From NCBI GenBank assembly GCA_020425125.1, contig JAGQRV010000005.1:54438-118437 (forward strand): a stretch of 64,000 nt of DNA. The letters are read 5' to 3'. Of the stretch, positions 27,985 to 42,431 are shown one piece after another. The DNA is from Paracoccaceae bacterium. Lineage in GTDB: Bacteria; Pseudomonadota; Alphaproteobacteria; Rhodobacterales; Rhodobacteraceae. Position 1 is the first letter of the stretch. Each line of letters starts with the position of its first letter. The translations under genes were made by a program, and so were the position numbers. The notes under the pieces were generated by a model, which saw only the letters and a program-made list of their open reading frames with translations, was not told the DNA's origin and did no database searches.

Positions 27985-28059
27985 TGGAGCGGGCGATGAG
28001 ATTCGAACTCACGACCCTTACCTTGGCAAGGTAATGCTCTACCCCTGAGCTACGCCCGC
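27985..28059 (-). tRNA. tRNA-Gly (GCC), copy 2
   Basis: The 75-nt cloverleaf has an encoded CCA end. Acceptor GCGGGCG pairs with CGCCCGC, D-arm GCTC/GAGC, anticodon stem TTACC/GGTAA with loop TTGCCAA (anticodon GCC), and T-arm GTGAG/CTCAT with loop TTCGAAT. It is identical to the copy exactly 100 bp upstream on the same strand. Confidence 0.98.
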
Positions 28060-28084
28060 AACCGGAAGTTCCTTCTTCCCTCTC

Positions 28085-28159
28085 TGGAGCGGGCGATGAG
28101 ATTCGAACTCACGACCCTTACCTTGGCAAGGTAATGCTCTACCCCTGAGCTACGCCCGC
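28085..28159 (-). tRNA. tRNA-Gly (GCC), copy 1
   Basis: The 75-nt cloverleaf is identical in sequence to the copy at 27985-28059, with anticodon GCC and encoded CCA. It is the promoter-proximal copy; a 25-base spacer separates the two, so they are likely one transcript. Anticodon position is 28124-28126. Confidence 0.98.
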
Positions 28160-37824: not shown

Positions 37825-40191
37825 ATGTCCGGTTACGATGACAGTGATGCCTTCATGGAAGCGCCGGTGCCGCTCTCGGTGCGCGCGATGGCGGCTCGGT
37901 CCGCCCCGTATCTCGATGGGCTGAACCCCGAACAACGCCGCGCGGTGGAAACACTGGACGGGCCGGTGCTGATGCTGGCCGGCGCCGGAACCGGGAAGAC
38001 CCGCGCCCTGACAGCGCGAATCGCCCATCTTCTGAGCACCGGCCGGGCGCGCCCGAACGAGGTCCTGGCGGTCACCTTCACCAACAAGGCCGCGCGCGAG
38101 ATGAGGAGCCGCGTCGGGCAGTTCCTTGGCGAGGCGGTCGAGGGGATGCCCTGGCTCGGGACCTTCCACGCCATTAACGTGAAGCTCCTGCGCCGCCATG
38201 CCGAGCTGGTCGACCTCAAGTCGAACTTCACCATTCTCGACACCGACGACCAGATCCGGCTGCTGAAACAGGTGATCGCCGGCCGCAACATCGACGAGAA
38301 GCGCTGGCCGGCGCGGCAGCTTTCGGGCCTGATCGACCACTGGAAGAACCGCGCCTGGACACCCGAGAAGGTCCCCGCCGCCGAAGCCAGCGGGTTCAAC
38401 AACCGCGGCACCGAGCTTTATGCCGACTATCAGACCCGCCTGCGCGAGCTGAACGCGGTGGATTTCGGTGACCTGCTGCTGCACATGGTCACGATCTTCC
38501 AGGCCCATGCGGACGTGCTGGCACAGTACCAGCGCTGGTTCCGCTTCATCCTCGTGGACGAATACCAGGACACCAACGTCGCCCAGTATCTGTGGCTGCG
38601 CCTGCTTGCGGCAGGACACAGGAACATTTGCTGCGTCGGCGACGACGACCAGTCGATCTATGGCTGGCGCGGTGCCGAGGTGGGCAACATCCTGCGCTTC
38701 GAGAAGGACTTTCCCGGCGCCGCGGTGATCCGGCTGGAGCAGAACTACCGCTCCACCCCGCATATCCTGGCCGCCGCGTCCGGAGTGATCTCGGCCAATC
38801 GCGGACGGCTCGGCAAGACACTCTGGACCGATGCCGAGGAGGGCACGAAGGTCCGCCTGATCGGCCATTGGGACGGAGAGGAGGAAGCCCGCTGGATCGG
38901 CGAGGAACTGGACGCGATGAGCCGGGGCACCCGCGGGATGCGCCCGTTCGCGTTGGACGAATGCGCCATTCTCGTCCGGGCCAGCCACCAGATGCGCGCC
39001 TTCGAGGACCGTTTCCTGACCATCGGCCTGCCCTATCGGGTGATCGGCGGCCCGCGGTTCTACGAGCGGATGGAGATCCGCGATGCGATGGCCTATTTCC
39101 GCCTGGCCGTCAGCCCGACGGACGACCTTGCCTTCGAGCGGGTGGTGAACACGCCCAAACGCGGACTTGGCGACAAGGCGCAGCAGAACATCCAGCGTGC
39201 AGCCCGCGAGGCGGGGCTGAGCCTGGTAGAGGGCGCCAGGCACCTGATCGATGCCGGCGGGATCGGCGGCAAGGGCAAGGCGGAACTGACCCGGCTGCTG
39301 GTTTCGCTTGGCCGCTGGCACGGCGAGGTTCTGGATCCCGGCCACAATCACATTGCCCTGGCCGAGCGGATCCTCGACGAGTCCGGCTACACCGGAATGT
39401 GGCAGAACGACAAGACGCCCGAAGCGGCCGGGCGGCTCGAAAACCTGAAGGAACTGGTAAAGGCGCTGGAAGGCTTCGAGAACCTCCAGGGCTTTCTGGA
39501 GCATGTCGCGCTGATCATGGACAACGAAGCCGAAGATGGCGGCCCAAAGGTCTCCATCATGACGCTCCATGCCGCCAAGGGACTCGAGTTTCCGGCCGTC
39601 TTCCTGCCGGGCTGGGAGGATGGACTGTTTCCGTCGCAGCGGTCGATGGACGAGAGCGGCGCCGCCGGGCTCGAGGAAGAACGCCGGCTGGCCTATGTCG
39701 GGATCACCCGCGCGGAGGAGGTCTGCACGATCTCTTTCGCCGCCAATCGGCGGGTCTTCGGGCAATGGCAAAGCCAGCTGCCGTCGCGCTTCATCGACGA
39801 ATTGCCGGAGGCCCATGTCGACGTGCTGACGCCTCCGGGCCTCTATGGCGGCGGCTATGGGGCGGCGGCGCGCAGCACCGGCCCGACGAACATCGAGGAA
39901 GCGGCGGCCGCAGCCAATGTCTACAACTCTCCCGGCTGGCGGCGGCTGCAGGCGCGCAGCGGCCAGCACGGGCTGTCGCAGCCTCGCGAATCGCGCGCAC
40001 CGGCCGTCGACAGCCAGGCGATCAGCGGCTTTTCTCCCGGCGACCGGGTATTCCATCAGAAATTTGGCTACGGCACGGTAGAATCGGTGGAAGGCGACAA
40101 GCTTGGGATCGCGTTCGACAAGGCCGGCACCAAACATATTGTTGCGCGGTTTGTTGCCGATGCATCGGCCACGGACGACTTGCCATTCTGA
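37825..40191 (+). CDS. uvrD: ATP-dependent DNA helicase UvrD/PcrA
   Basis: This is a 3'-5' superfamily 1 helicase for nucleotide excision and mismatch repair. It has 788 residues. Motif I is LAGAGTGKTRALTAR near residue 51, motif II LVDEYQDTN, motif III GDDDQSIYGWRGAE, motif IV LEQNYRST, motif V TLHAAKGLEFPAVFLP and motif VI RLAYVGITRAEE. The C-terminal GDRVFHQKFGYGTVESVEG is the UvrD/PcrA Tudor-like domain that binds RNA polymerase or UvrB. It is monocistronic; the ribosome binding site is weak. Confidence 0.96.
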   Translation: MSGYDDSDAFMEAPVPLSVRAMAARSAPYLDGLNPEQRRAVETLDGPVLMLAGAGTGKTRALTARIAHLLSTGRARPNEVLAVTFTNKAAREMRSRVGQFLGEAVEGMPWLGTFHAINVKLLRRHAELVDLKSNFTILDTDDQIRLLKQVIAGRNIDEKRWPARQLSGLIDHWKNRAWTPEKVPAAEASGFNNRGTELYADYQTRLRELNAVDFGDLLLHMVTIFQAHADVLAQYQRWFRFILVDEYQDTNVAQYLWLRLLAAGHRNICCVGDDDQSIYGWRGAEVGNILRFEKDFPGAAVIRLEQNYRSTPHILAAASGVISANRGRLGKTLWTDAEEGTKVRLIGHWDGEEEARWIGEELDAMSRGTRGMRPFALDECAILVRASHQMRAFEDRFLTIGLPYRVIGGPRFYERMEIRDAMAYFRLAVSPTDDLAFERVVNTPKRGLGDKAQQNIQRAAREAGLSLVEGARHLIDAGGIGGKGKAELTRLLVSLGRWHGEVLDPGHNHIALAERILDESGYTGMWQNDKTPEAAGRLENLKELVKALEGFENLQGFLEHVALIMDNEAEDGGPKVSIMTLHAAKGLEFPAVFLPGWEDGLFPSQRSMDESGAAGLEEERRLAYVGITRAEEVCTISFAANRRVFGQWQSQLPSRFIDELPEAHVDVLTPPGLYGGGYGAAARSTGPTNIEEAAAAANVYNSPGWRRLQARSGQHGLSQPRESRAPAVDSQAISGFSPGDRVFHQKFGYGTVESVEGDKLGIAFDKAGTKHIVARFVADASATDDLPF

Positions 40192-40950: not shown

Positions 40951-40993
40951 AAAAAAAGACGGCGACACCAGGGAGGAGGAGGGTGCCGCCGTC
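40951..40993 (-). terminator. Rho-independent terminator of the small RNA
   Basis: A 12-bp stem (minus-strand GACGGCGGCACC with GGUGUCGCCGUC) is followed directly by U7 (40957-40951). The same hairpin exposes the anti-SD loop, so terminator and functional element coincide. Confidence 0.85.
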
Positions 40994-41040
40994 AGAAACA
41001 GAAAACCCAGGGAGGAGGAGGGGCTTTCTGAGCTGTGAAA
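40951..41040 (-). ncRNA. CcsR/cuckoo-type small RNA with two anti-SD loops
   Basis: Read on the minus strand, two hairpins follow each other. The first (41030-40999) has a 10-bp stem and the second (40993-40958) a 12-bp stem, each with one G-U pair. Both have the identical 12-base loop CUCCUCCUCCCU, which contains CCUCCUCCC, complementary to Shine-Dalgarno sequences. Seven U residues follow the second stem. This is the architecture of the alphaproteobacterial cuckoo RNAs (CcsR1-4 of Rhodobacter sphaeroides, stress-induced). Unlike those, no DUF1127 gene precedes it. The 5' end is uncertain. Confidence 0.8.
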
Positions 41041-41185
41041 CTGCTTCAATCGAAAGATGCCACCGCCTTGCATCGATTGCATTTCCGGATCGCCGCACTT
41101 GTTAACCGATGCCGGGGCACCGACCCTGTTACTTGGCGGTCCGTCGATACTCTGACGGGTCATCATTAATCTGTCGTCTGAACTA

Positions 41186-41213
41186 AACATAGCACGATGC
41201 TGCACCTGCACAA
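41186..41213 (-). promoter_or_regulatory. Candidate promoter of the small RNA
   Basis: On the minus strand TTGTGC (41213-41208) and TATGTT (41191-41186) are 16 bases apart; the CTTG core would also suit an RpoH-type sigma factor. The implied start near 41179 gives a primary transcript of about 230 bases. Confidence 0.4.
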
Positions 41214-41345
41214 GCAAAAACCTGCGCAAAGCTGCCATGCAGAAAGTGCATGGGTTGGTCCGGTTGCGGGGCTGCCGGCGCGACGGCAGGATGAGGCATT
41301 CCGGCAACCCGCCGGGGCTGGAGAAGTGCGAAGAGCGAGGCGCAG

Positions 41346-42431
41346 ATGGCGGTAGAAAGAGATCAGGTATTGGCGGCCCTGTCTGGAATTGCCGTCCCGG
41401 GAGGCGGCGATCTGGTTGGGGACGATCTGGTGCGGGCGCTCTCGATCAGCGAGGGCAATGTGCAGTTCGTGATCGAGGCCCCCTCGTCCGAGGCGGCACG
41501 GAAGATGGAGCCGGTCCGCAAGGCTGCAGAGGCGGCGGTGGCGGCCCTACCTGGGGTTGCTCGGGTCACGGTGGCACTGACCGCGCATAGCGGCGGCGCG
41601 GCCCGCGCGGCCTCCGGGGCCGAGCCGCCGGGACTGAAGTTCGGCCGGCATCCGACACCGCCGAAGGGGCCGCAGCGCCTGCCCGGCATCGGCCGTATCC
41701 TGGCCATCGGTTCGGGGAAGGGCGGTGTCGGAAAGTCCACGCTGGCGGCCAACCTGGCGGTGGCGCTGGCGAGGGCGGGGCGGCGGGTCGGACTGCTCGA
41801 TGCCGATTTCTACGGGCCGAGCCAGCCGCGGATGATGGGGGTCTCGGCACGGCCGGCCTCGCCGGACGGCAAGGAAATCGTGCCGCTCCACGCCCATGGC
41901 GTCACGGTCATGTCGATCGGACTGATGGTGGAGCCCGAGCAGGCACTGGTCTGGCGTGGGCCGATGCTGATGGGGGCGCTGCAACAGATGCTGGGGCAGG
42001 TTGCCTGGGGCGAGTTGGACGATCTGCTTATCGACATGCCGCCGGGCACGGGCGACGTGCAGCTGACGCTGTGCCAGCGTTACGAACTGGCCGGGGCGCT
42101 CGTCGTGTCGACGCCGCAGGATGTGGCCCTCATGGACGCCCGCCGCGCCATCGACATGTTCCGCCGCCTCGATACGCCGGTTCTGGGCCTGATCGAGAAC
42201 ATGAGCACCCATATCTGCCCGCGCTGCGGCTATGAGGATGCCGTCTTCGGTCATGGCGGAGTGGAGGCGGAGGCGGCCAGGCTCGGGATTCCCTTCCTCG
42301 GCGCCCTGCCGCTCAATCTCGAGATTCGTCTGTCCGGCGATGGCGGGACGCCGATCGCCGCGACCGACGGCCCGCTGGCCGCCCCGTTCCAGGCTTTGGC
42401 GCAGCGCCTTCTGGCGGACGCGCCGGCCTGA
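41346..42431 (+). CDS. Mrp/ApbC (NBP35-type) Fe-S cluster carrier ATPase
   Basis: This 361-residue P-loop ATPase binds and transfers [4Fe-4S] clusters. An N-terminal DUF59/MIP18-like domain (residues 1-80, with EAAVAALPGVARVTVALTA) precedes the deviant Walker A GSGKGGVGKST near residue 123. DADFYGPSQPRMMG, DMPPGTGDVQLTL and the cluster-binding CPRCGYE (CxxC) near residue 290 are hallmarks. GAGCGAGG precedes the ATG. It lies between the small RNA locus and the mraZ leader. Confidence 0.95.
   Translation: MAVERDQVLAALSGIAVPGGGDLVGDDLVRALSISEGNVQFVIEAPSSEAARKMEPVRKAAEAAVAALPGVARVTVALTAHSGGAARAASGAEPPGLKFGRHPTPPKGPQRLPGIGRILAIGSGKGGVGKSTLAANLAVALARAGRRVGLLDADFYGPSQPRMMGVSARPASPDGKEIVPLHAHGVTVMSIGLMVEPEQALVWRGPMLMGALQQMLGQVAWGELDDLLIDMPPGTGDVQLTLCQRYELAGALVVSTPQDVALMDARRAIDMFRRLDTPVLGLIENMSTHICPRCGYEDAVFGHGGVEAEAARLGIPFLGALPLNLEIRLSGDGGTPIAATDGPLAAPFQALAQRLLADAPA

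Follow-up and report, generated by a model that had tools for sequence, protein, structure and literature searches.

Why would a double hairpin that the earlier note likened to the cuckoo/CcsR RNAs of alphaproteobacteria stand alone between a response-regulator gene and mrp, without the DUF1127 gene usually found upstream, and what would drive its expression? The locus in question lies on the minus strand of the window, the 64,000-nt stretch of DNA analyzed here, from a marine Paracoccaceae bacterium. RNA folding of 40951-41030 bears out the two adjacent hairpins on which the likeness had been built. Hairpin 1 (40999..41030, minus strand), which is also recovered in the alignment to the CcsR1 model, has a 10-bp stem and carries the loop CUCCUCCUCCCU at 41020-41009. 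After a spacer of 5 nt, hairpin 2 (40951..40993 including its U tract, minus strand) has a 12-bp stem (40993-40958) that encloses the same 12-base loop at 40981-40970, on a stem of different sequence. Seven U residues (U7, 40957-40951) lie directly 3' of hairpin 2, which is an intrinsic terminator, as had been claimed. A terminator scan called none at the locus, since it was limited to loops of 3-8 nt and the 12-nt loop falls outside that range. The 94-nt stretch folds to -35.9 kcal/mol, against -18.1 ± 2.8 for dinucleotide shuffles (z = -6.35, with 0 of 200 shuffles as low); for the whole RNA including its leader, z was -1.36, i.e., not clearly better folded than shuffles. The stems also covary. 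In an alignment of 24 family copies (23 distinct rows), standard pairs make up 95.6% of the paired cells, two-sided changes were seen at 10 of the 13 pairs, and covariation scored 0.413 versus 0.200 ± 0.019 in shuffles (0 of 500 as high), the consensus structure having been taken from the same alignment, which favors the structure. A fourth measure, the number of further pair types, was weaker, with 22 of 500 shuffles as high.

To which family does this RNA belong? No Rfam family reached its gathering score at the locus. In the Rfam scan suggested by the earlier note, which we ran under a lax threshold, the best match was CcsR1 (RF02791; 50.4 bits, E = 4.1e-11), accompanied by ar14 (RF02344; 43.8 bits, E = 1.7e-6), both below their gathering cut-offs of 65.3 and 58.8, respectively. 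Across 61 genomes, CcsR1 matched at E ≤ 0.01 in 32 and above its cut-off in two; the genome from which the window comes has two CcsR1 matches, one at the window locus and one on contig C23. Two traits of cuckoo/CcsR RNAs are found here, namely hairpins with identical CCUCCUCCC loops on diverged stems and a conserved chromosomal place in the bacterial family (79 of 80 mrp loci, same strand). The DUF1127 gene that precedes the units in the CIN1 type is missing at the window locus and present at C23 in the same genome. Together with the CcsR1 E-value, the identical loops and the synteny uphold the cuckoo/CcsR layout, and we conclude that the predicted sRNA is a CcsR/cuckoo-type anti-Shine-Dalgarno RNA, in the form of an orphan single unit. 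It resembles CcsR1-4/ccaF1 of Rhodobacter sphaeroides, a member of the same bacterial family, in its double hairpin with CCUCCUCCC loops and in that the mrp-side locus of relatives consists of DUF1127 plus 1 to 8 such units, but it differs in having one unit, no DUF1127 in front, its own candidate promoter, and an Rfam score below the cut-off. Like NfeR1/alpha-r14 of Sinorhizobium meliloti (RF02344), it would stand on its own, has identical anti-SD loops, and carries a TGCA-N6-GCAT box near -65 (as described in part in PMC10746234), but NfeR1 has three anti-SD hairpins where the window sRNA has two, which also separates it from the ar14 type.

The flanks of the locus are as the earlier note described them. 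On the plus strand, mrp (41346..42431; a NUBPL/ApbC-type P-loop NTPase, PF10609/PF01883), identified by Pfam and synteny, is the divergent flank and the family landmark of the locus. The convergent flank is a gene for a response-regulator receiver protein (PF00072; 40290..40724), beyond which, on the side opposite mrp, lies a UvrD/PcrA-type helicase gene (37825..40191), both also on the plus strand and both supported by Pfam and tblastn. Elsewhere in the window, two tandem tRNA-Gly(GCC) genes occupy the minus strand at 27985-28159. We gathered 80 named loci by similarity to the window's Mrp protein rather than by the RNA; by most titles they are from Rhodobacteraceae. They were searched with a covariance model built from 24 copies, and those seed copies match by construction; the model was not drawn from the 80 loci, although some of these, e.g., L018/L049 and L009/L059, represent one place listed under two names. 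Cuckoo units were found at 79 of the 80 mrp loci; the 231 matches (E ≤ 0.01) lie without exception on the opposite strand to mrp. In the sole miss, L125, the sequence begins 190 bases before mrp, at a contig edge. The arrays lie more than 1 kb from mrp in L069, L091, L101, L116, and L121, and in L091 a unit was found before the DUF1127 gene. The helicase gene is inside the fetched stretch in 53 of the 80 loci, and the response-regulator gene is a neighbor of the locus in four relatives from the genus and at 3 of the 80 loci, one of these three being M. roseus once more. With units on one and the same strand at 79 of 80 Rhodobacteraceae mrp loci, the mrp-side place is usual for the family rather than odd, which corrects the earlier reading on this point. 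A further unit with its own promoter box lies between mrp and the DUF1127 gene in a Roseobacter metagenome-assembled genome (MAG; L119:3690-3771).

What does set the locus apart is the protein gene. A DUF1127 frame on the same strand as the units was found in 74 of the 80 mrp loci and is missing in L049 (M. roseus), L051, L081, L093, L117, and the cut L125; the profile was iterated on the same frames that it later scored, so that its E-values are flattering. In the window, no DUF1127 frame was found at E ≤ 0.01 between 37001 and 42500. The reported absence of the gene thus stands for the immediate neighborhood, but not for the genome, which has seven DUF1127 matches, one of them directly upstream of the second cuckoo unit, on C23. 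Within the genus, all six genomes covered on the mrp or the helicase side (the window's, G002, G003, G004, G005, and G006) have units there without a DUF1127 frame, with mrp lying outside the fetched 1.5 kb in G002. Genome G001, which is 74% complete, gave no CcsR match at E ≤ 0.01. We conclude that the window locus is the family's normal mrp-side site, reduced to one unit without the protein gene. No DUF1127 frame was found either at the sites of second units in G002, G004, G005, and G006. In G004 (M. roseus) and G006 this second orphan unit is syntenic (L134:2607-2754 and L133:3326-3476) and has the same -35 box about 65 nt before it; the second units of G002 and G005 (L132, L135) and the G003 unit L016 show no clear -35 box, the best scoring 7, 7, and 6 of 10 positions. 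In L014 (G013), a stretch of roughly 2 kb contains four DUF1127 frames along with several cuckoo units.

How would an orphan unit be transcribed? An E. coli-type sigma-70 scan called no promoter at the sRNA locus, and the candidate promoter therefore rests on conservation across species. All elements are on the minus strand, and their distances are relative to a start near 41179 that was estimated from the -10. The -10-like element CTATGTT (41186..41192) has similar counterparts in many relatives, with weak column-wise conservation. Upstream of it, a -35-like TTG overlaps a TGCA-N6-GCAT box (TTG-TGCAGGTGCAGCAT, 41197..41213). Next come a VtlR-like box, TGCATGGCAGCTTTG, at about -62 to -48 (41227..41241), which agrees at 13 of 15 positions with the Brucella VtlR motif read in reverse complement, and a second TGCA-N6-GCAT box, TGCACTTTCTGCAT, at about -71 to -58 (41237..41250), which has the form and nearly the position of the LsrB site of S. 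meliloti nfeR1. An LsrB-type box thus lies at about -70 to -50 from the estimated start. The predicted 5' leader is about 145 nt long (41031..41179), with 144 nt separating the estimated start from the first unit. Its length elsewhere in the genus is 44-51 nt in G002, G004, and G006, 111 in G005, and 145 and 109 in G003, so that there is no conserved reading frame in it. A coding reading, based on minus-strand ORFs through the hairpins, was dropped on the strength of this variation (44-145 nt) and of the leader in the window, in which no DUF1127 remnant was found.

We compared the upstream regions of the 80 loci, taken from the mrp start to DUF1127, or as 350 nt where there was no DUF1127. TTGTGC-N4-GCA occurs in 68 of them. 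The VtlR-binding motif published for Brucella, CAATGCAGCCATGCA (PMC12595884, consulted in part), is matched in reverse complement at 12 or more of 15 positions in 72 of 80 regions and at 13 or more in 53; among 1600 first-order Markov shuffles, 12 was reached in 0.8% and 13 in none, and the reversed motif scored at most 10. In all 68 regions with TTGTGC-N4-GCA, its best match precedes TTGTGC by 27 or 28 nt. Over this 15-nt box, information content averages 1.63 bits per position; the preceding 15 nt, into which the next box partly extends, have 0.93, and the following 15 nt have 0.46. TGCA-N6-GCAT is present in 69 of 80 regions versus 2.9% of 4000 shuffles, at two fixed places: of 68 regions, 48 have it 36-37 nt before the TTG and 38 have it over the -35. 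Both copies are present in the window (41250-41237 and 41210-41197). Conservation of these boxes (68, 72, and 69 of 80) bears out the proposal that the sRNA has its own candidate promoter, despite the blank sigma-70 scan. Two other patterns were uninformative: strict CTTG-N17/18-CYATNT is found in 0 of 80 regions, and CTGC-N3-GCAGC-N-TTGC with one mismatch gave 22 genome matches versus 14 for its control.

Where else does this promoter occur? Exact TTGTGC-N4-GCAGCA is found three times in the window's genome, against 0.46 expected from base composition: before the window sRNA, before the DUF1127-cuckoo pair on C23, and before a DUF1127 gene on C26. Only exact matches carry signal, because with up to one mismatch there are 36 matches versus 46 for the control pattern. 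The exact box is absent before five of the seven DUF1127 genes, and at C23 and C26 the VtlR motif is matched at 10 and 11 of 15 positions, near chance, leaving the -35 box as the shared element. A composite promoter pattern searched in 61 genomes gave 13 matches, spread over 12 genomes, and the control gave none; 11 of the 13 are at cuckoo loci, one is before a DUF1127 gene (L239), and one, in G056, is outside both classes. With its gap of 20-24, the pattern covers the 28-nt spacing only and misses the 27-nt class, so that 12 of 61 genomes is a lower bound. In the genome with L239 (G016), the DUF1127 gene with the composite promoter is on contig C8 and the cuckoo array on contig C1.

Could the promoter and the lone unit be read in other ways? 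The core CTTGTG-N16-CTATGT is intermediate between the RpoD form CTTGAC-N17-CTATAT and the RpoH1 form CTTGAA-N16-CCTATAT as quoted in part of PMC8844928, and the TTG...CTATGTT core could be readable by RpoD or RpoH. In R. sphaeroides the published promoter of the ccaF1-CcsR locus depends on RpoHI/RpoHII (excerpts of PMC10253847), and ordinary CcsR regulation would mean such a stress promoter here, with the TGCA/GCAT boxes bound by another factor or by none. The TTG...TAT of the window does fit the RpoHI/RpoHII consensus of TTG at -35 and TAT at -12 (PMC10673084, in part), and CCCCATGTT stands at the -10 of several relatives, e.g., L053, L085, and L089. We nevertheless hold this reading to be unlikely, for it does not account for boxes at a fixed spacing, resembling published LsrB sites, at most of the 80 loci; moreover, the choice of sigma factor and an LTTR activator are compatible.

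That the upstream box is instead a PhaR site, which would link the sRNA to polyhydroxybutyrate storage, strikes us as quite improbable. The window carries CTGC-ATG-GCAG, an instance of the PhaR consensus, CTGC-N3-GCAG; CTGC-N3/4-GCAG occurs in 53 of 80 upstream regions, and one of the three phasin genes in the window's genome (L272) has two CTGC-N3-GCAG boxes upstream. However, neither TTGTGC-N4-GCA nor TGCA-N6-GCAT occurs in any of the three phasin upstream regions, and the exact TTGTGC-N4-GCAGCA of this genome is confined to DUF1127/cuckoo promoters. Least probable of all, and in our view very unlikely, is a functionless relic, i.e., a unit and promoter left over after the loss of ccaF1. A single unit at the window locus and a DUF1127-bearing copy elsewhere (C23) are what a relic would leave behind, but the loops are perfect and identical, and the terminator and promoter boxes are intact both in the window and in relatives from its genus, even though the leaders of those relatives differ in length and sequence. 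The second orphan units of G004 and G006 likewise keep the -35 box, although those of G002 and G005 do not.

Control by an LsrB/VtlR-type regulator presupposes that the genome encodes one. In Rhizobiales, lsrB and trxB share an operon (PMC11975290, in part), and we therefore took as the query a LysR-type protein of G037 whose gene immediately follows trxB. At E ≤ 1e-60, it had a match in 35 of 41 genomes; the 25 genomes from the window's family have exactly one each, 48-54% identical to the query, and that of G012 is interrupted by one in-frame stop. The one in the window's genome (G000:C41:77609-78475, the same as L209:2113-3006) is 50% identical to the trxB-adjacent LTTR, with the next paralogue at 33%. 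A tree of 21 proteins places it among the trxB-adjacent proteins (support 96/98) and away from eight paralogues encoded in the same genome, and its best PDB match is A. tumefaciens LsrB (9HH1, E = 7e-70; next 3e-27). The window's genome thus encodes an LsrB-type regulator. trxB adjoins the LTTR gene in 8 of 8 loci of other families and in none of six window-family places examined, with 1.5 to 2.5 kb of flank. LsrB has been called unique to Rhizobiales from a tree of selected species (PMC11975290, in the part consulted); the 25 of 25 result, as a sequence match, speaks against such a restriction.

What is known of these regulators fits the promoter described above. According to parts of two reports, LsrB of S. 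meliloti activates the cuckoo-type NfeR1 through TGCA-N6-GCAT at -72 to -60 (PMC10746234), and VtlR of Brucella controls DUF1127 genes and AbcR2 (PMC12595884). The window's system resembles the LsrB/VtlR regulon of Brucella, Agrobacterium, and Sinorhizobium in having sRNAs and DUF1127 genes under one candidate regulator, matching promoter boxes, and an encoded LTTR that falls in the same clade, but the regulon has been described for Rhizobiales in the sources consulted, and the candidate regulator gene in the window's genome is not beside trxB. We lean toward LsrB-type control of the window sRNA; repression would likewise be consistent with a box that covers the -35.

On balance, we consider it likely that the locus encodes an orphan NfeR1-like sRNA on an inherited ccaF1 promoter, probably controlled by LsrB. 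In the ancestor, a single promoter on the mrp side would have served ccaF1 (DUF1127) and the cuckoo units downstream of it. The DUF1127 gene would have been lost here in the window's genus, or split off to another locus, placing the promoter directly before one double hairpin. Transcription would start near 41179 from the TTG...CTATGTT core, probably activated by a LysR regulator of the LsrB/VtlR group from the TGCA-N6-GCAT box near -65, with the second box over the -35, and would yield a roughly 230-nt RNA ending at its own terminator. With such a start of its own, the sRNA would be independent of a ccaF1 transcript, and that it is expressed at all is very probable. The two redundant CUCCUCCUCCCU loops would base-pair with ribosome-binding sites of the GGGAGGAGG type in mRNAs for metabolism and transport, reducing translation of these mRNAs. 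By analogy with NfeR1 and CcsR, silencing through loop pairing is highly likely: in the portions of the literature consulted, NfeR1 loops silence ntrB at the translation start, with redundant aSD motifs (PMC10746234), and CcsR RNAs have the FlhR mRNA as a target and an effect on the pyruvate dehydrogenase complex (PMC8307010). Maturation of CcsR from the ccaF1 transcript involves CcaF1 and RNase E (PMC10253847 and PMC8625941, in part), and CcaF1-like proteins could still act on the window sRNA in trans.

Candidate partners are available. The genome has 39 GGGAGGAG-N3-11-ATG sites versus 6 for the reversed pattern, which is as expected for Shine-Dalgarno sites generally and would show only that partner sequences exist. 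We fetched 30 of the 39 sites, with some products cut to 330 residues, and 10 of the 30 were annotated by Pfam; these ten, chosen by eye and serving as leads only, are carbon-metabolism, cytochrome, and transport genes. They encode a PQQ alcohol dehydrogenase, TctC, a SoxA-type cytochrome, an ABC ATPase, malic enzyme, a sugar-type binding protein, DctP, triosephosphate isomerase, a class II aldolase, and a nucleotidyl transferase.

The sRNA itself extends a known family; the regulator link is a new, testable claim. A full-text search, outside of which the 2015 cuckoo, 2015 CcsR, and 2021 CcaF1 papers fall, returned no link in print between CcaF1/CcsR and LsrB/VtlR or between LsrB and Rhodobacter, and in PMC12501420 LsrB appears only in the reference list. 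More broadly, an LsrB/VtlR-type regulator may govern cuckoo RNAs and DUF1127 genes as one regulon across Rhodobacteraceae and Rhizobiales, the sRNA part repeatedly breaking free of DUF1127 while keeping the promoter, a proposal that we see as evenly balanced between right and wrong. The sRNA stands apart from DUF1127 in the window's genus, Yoonia litorea, a Cognatishimia MAG, and the extra unit of the Roseobacter MAG. If the regulon is common to both groups, the wiring would be older than the split between the orders of Rhodobacteraceae and Rhizobiales. The promoter boxes join two literatures, on Rhodobacter CcsR and on rhizobial LsrB/VtlR, and put a name to a candidate activator of the CcsR/ccaF1 locus; in the sources consulted, transcription of that locus is tied to RpoHI/RpoHII. 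The orphan copy, for its part, offers a way to examine the sRNA separately from the DUF1127 RNA-binding protein that helps its maturation in R. sphaeroides.
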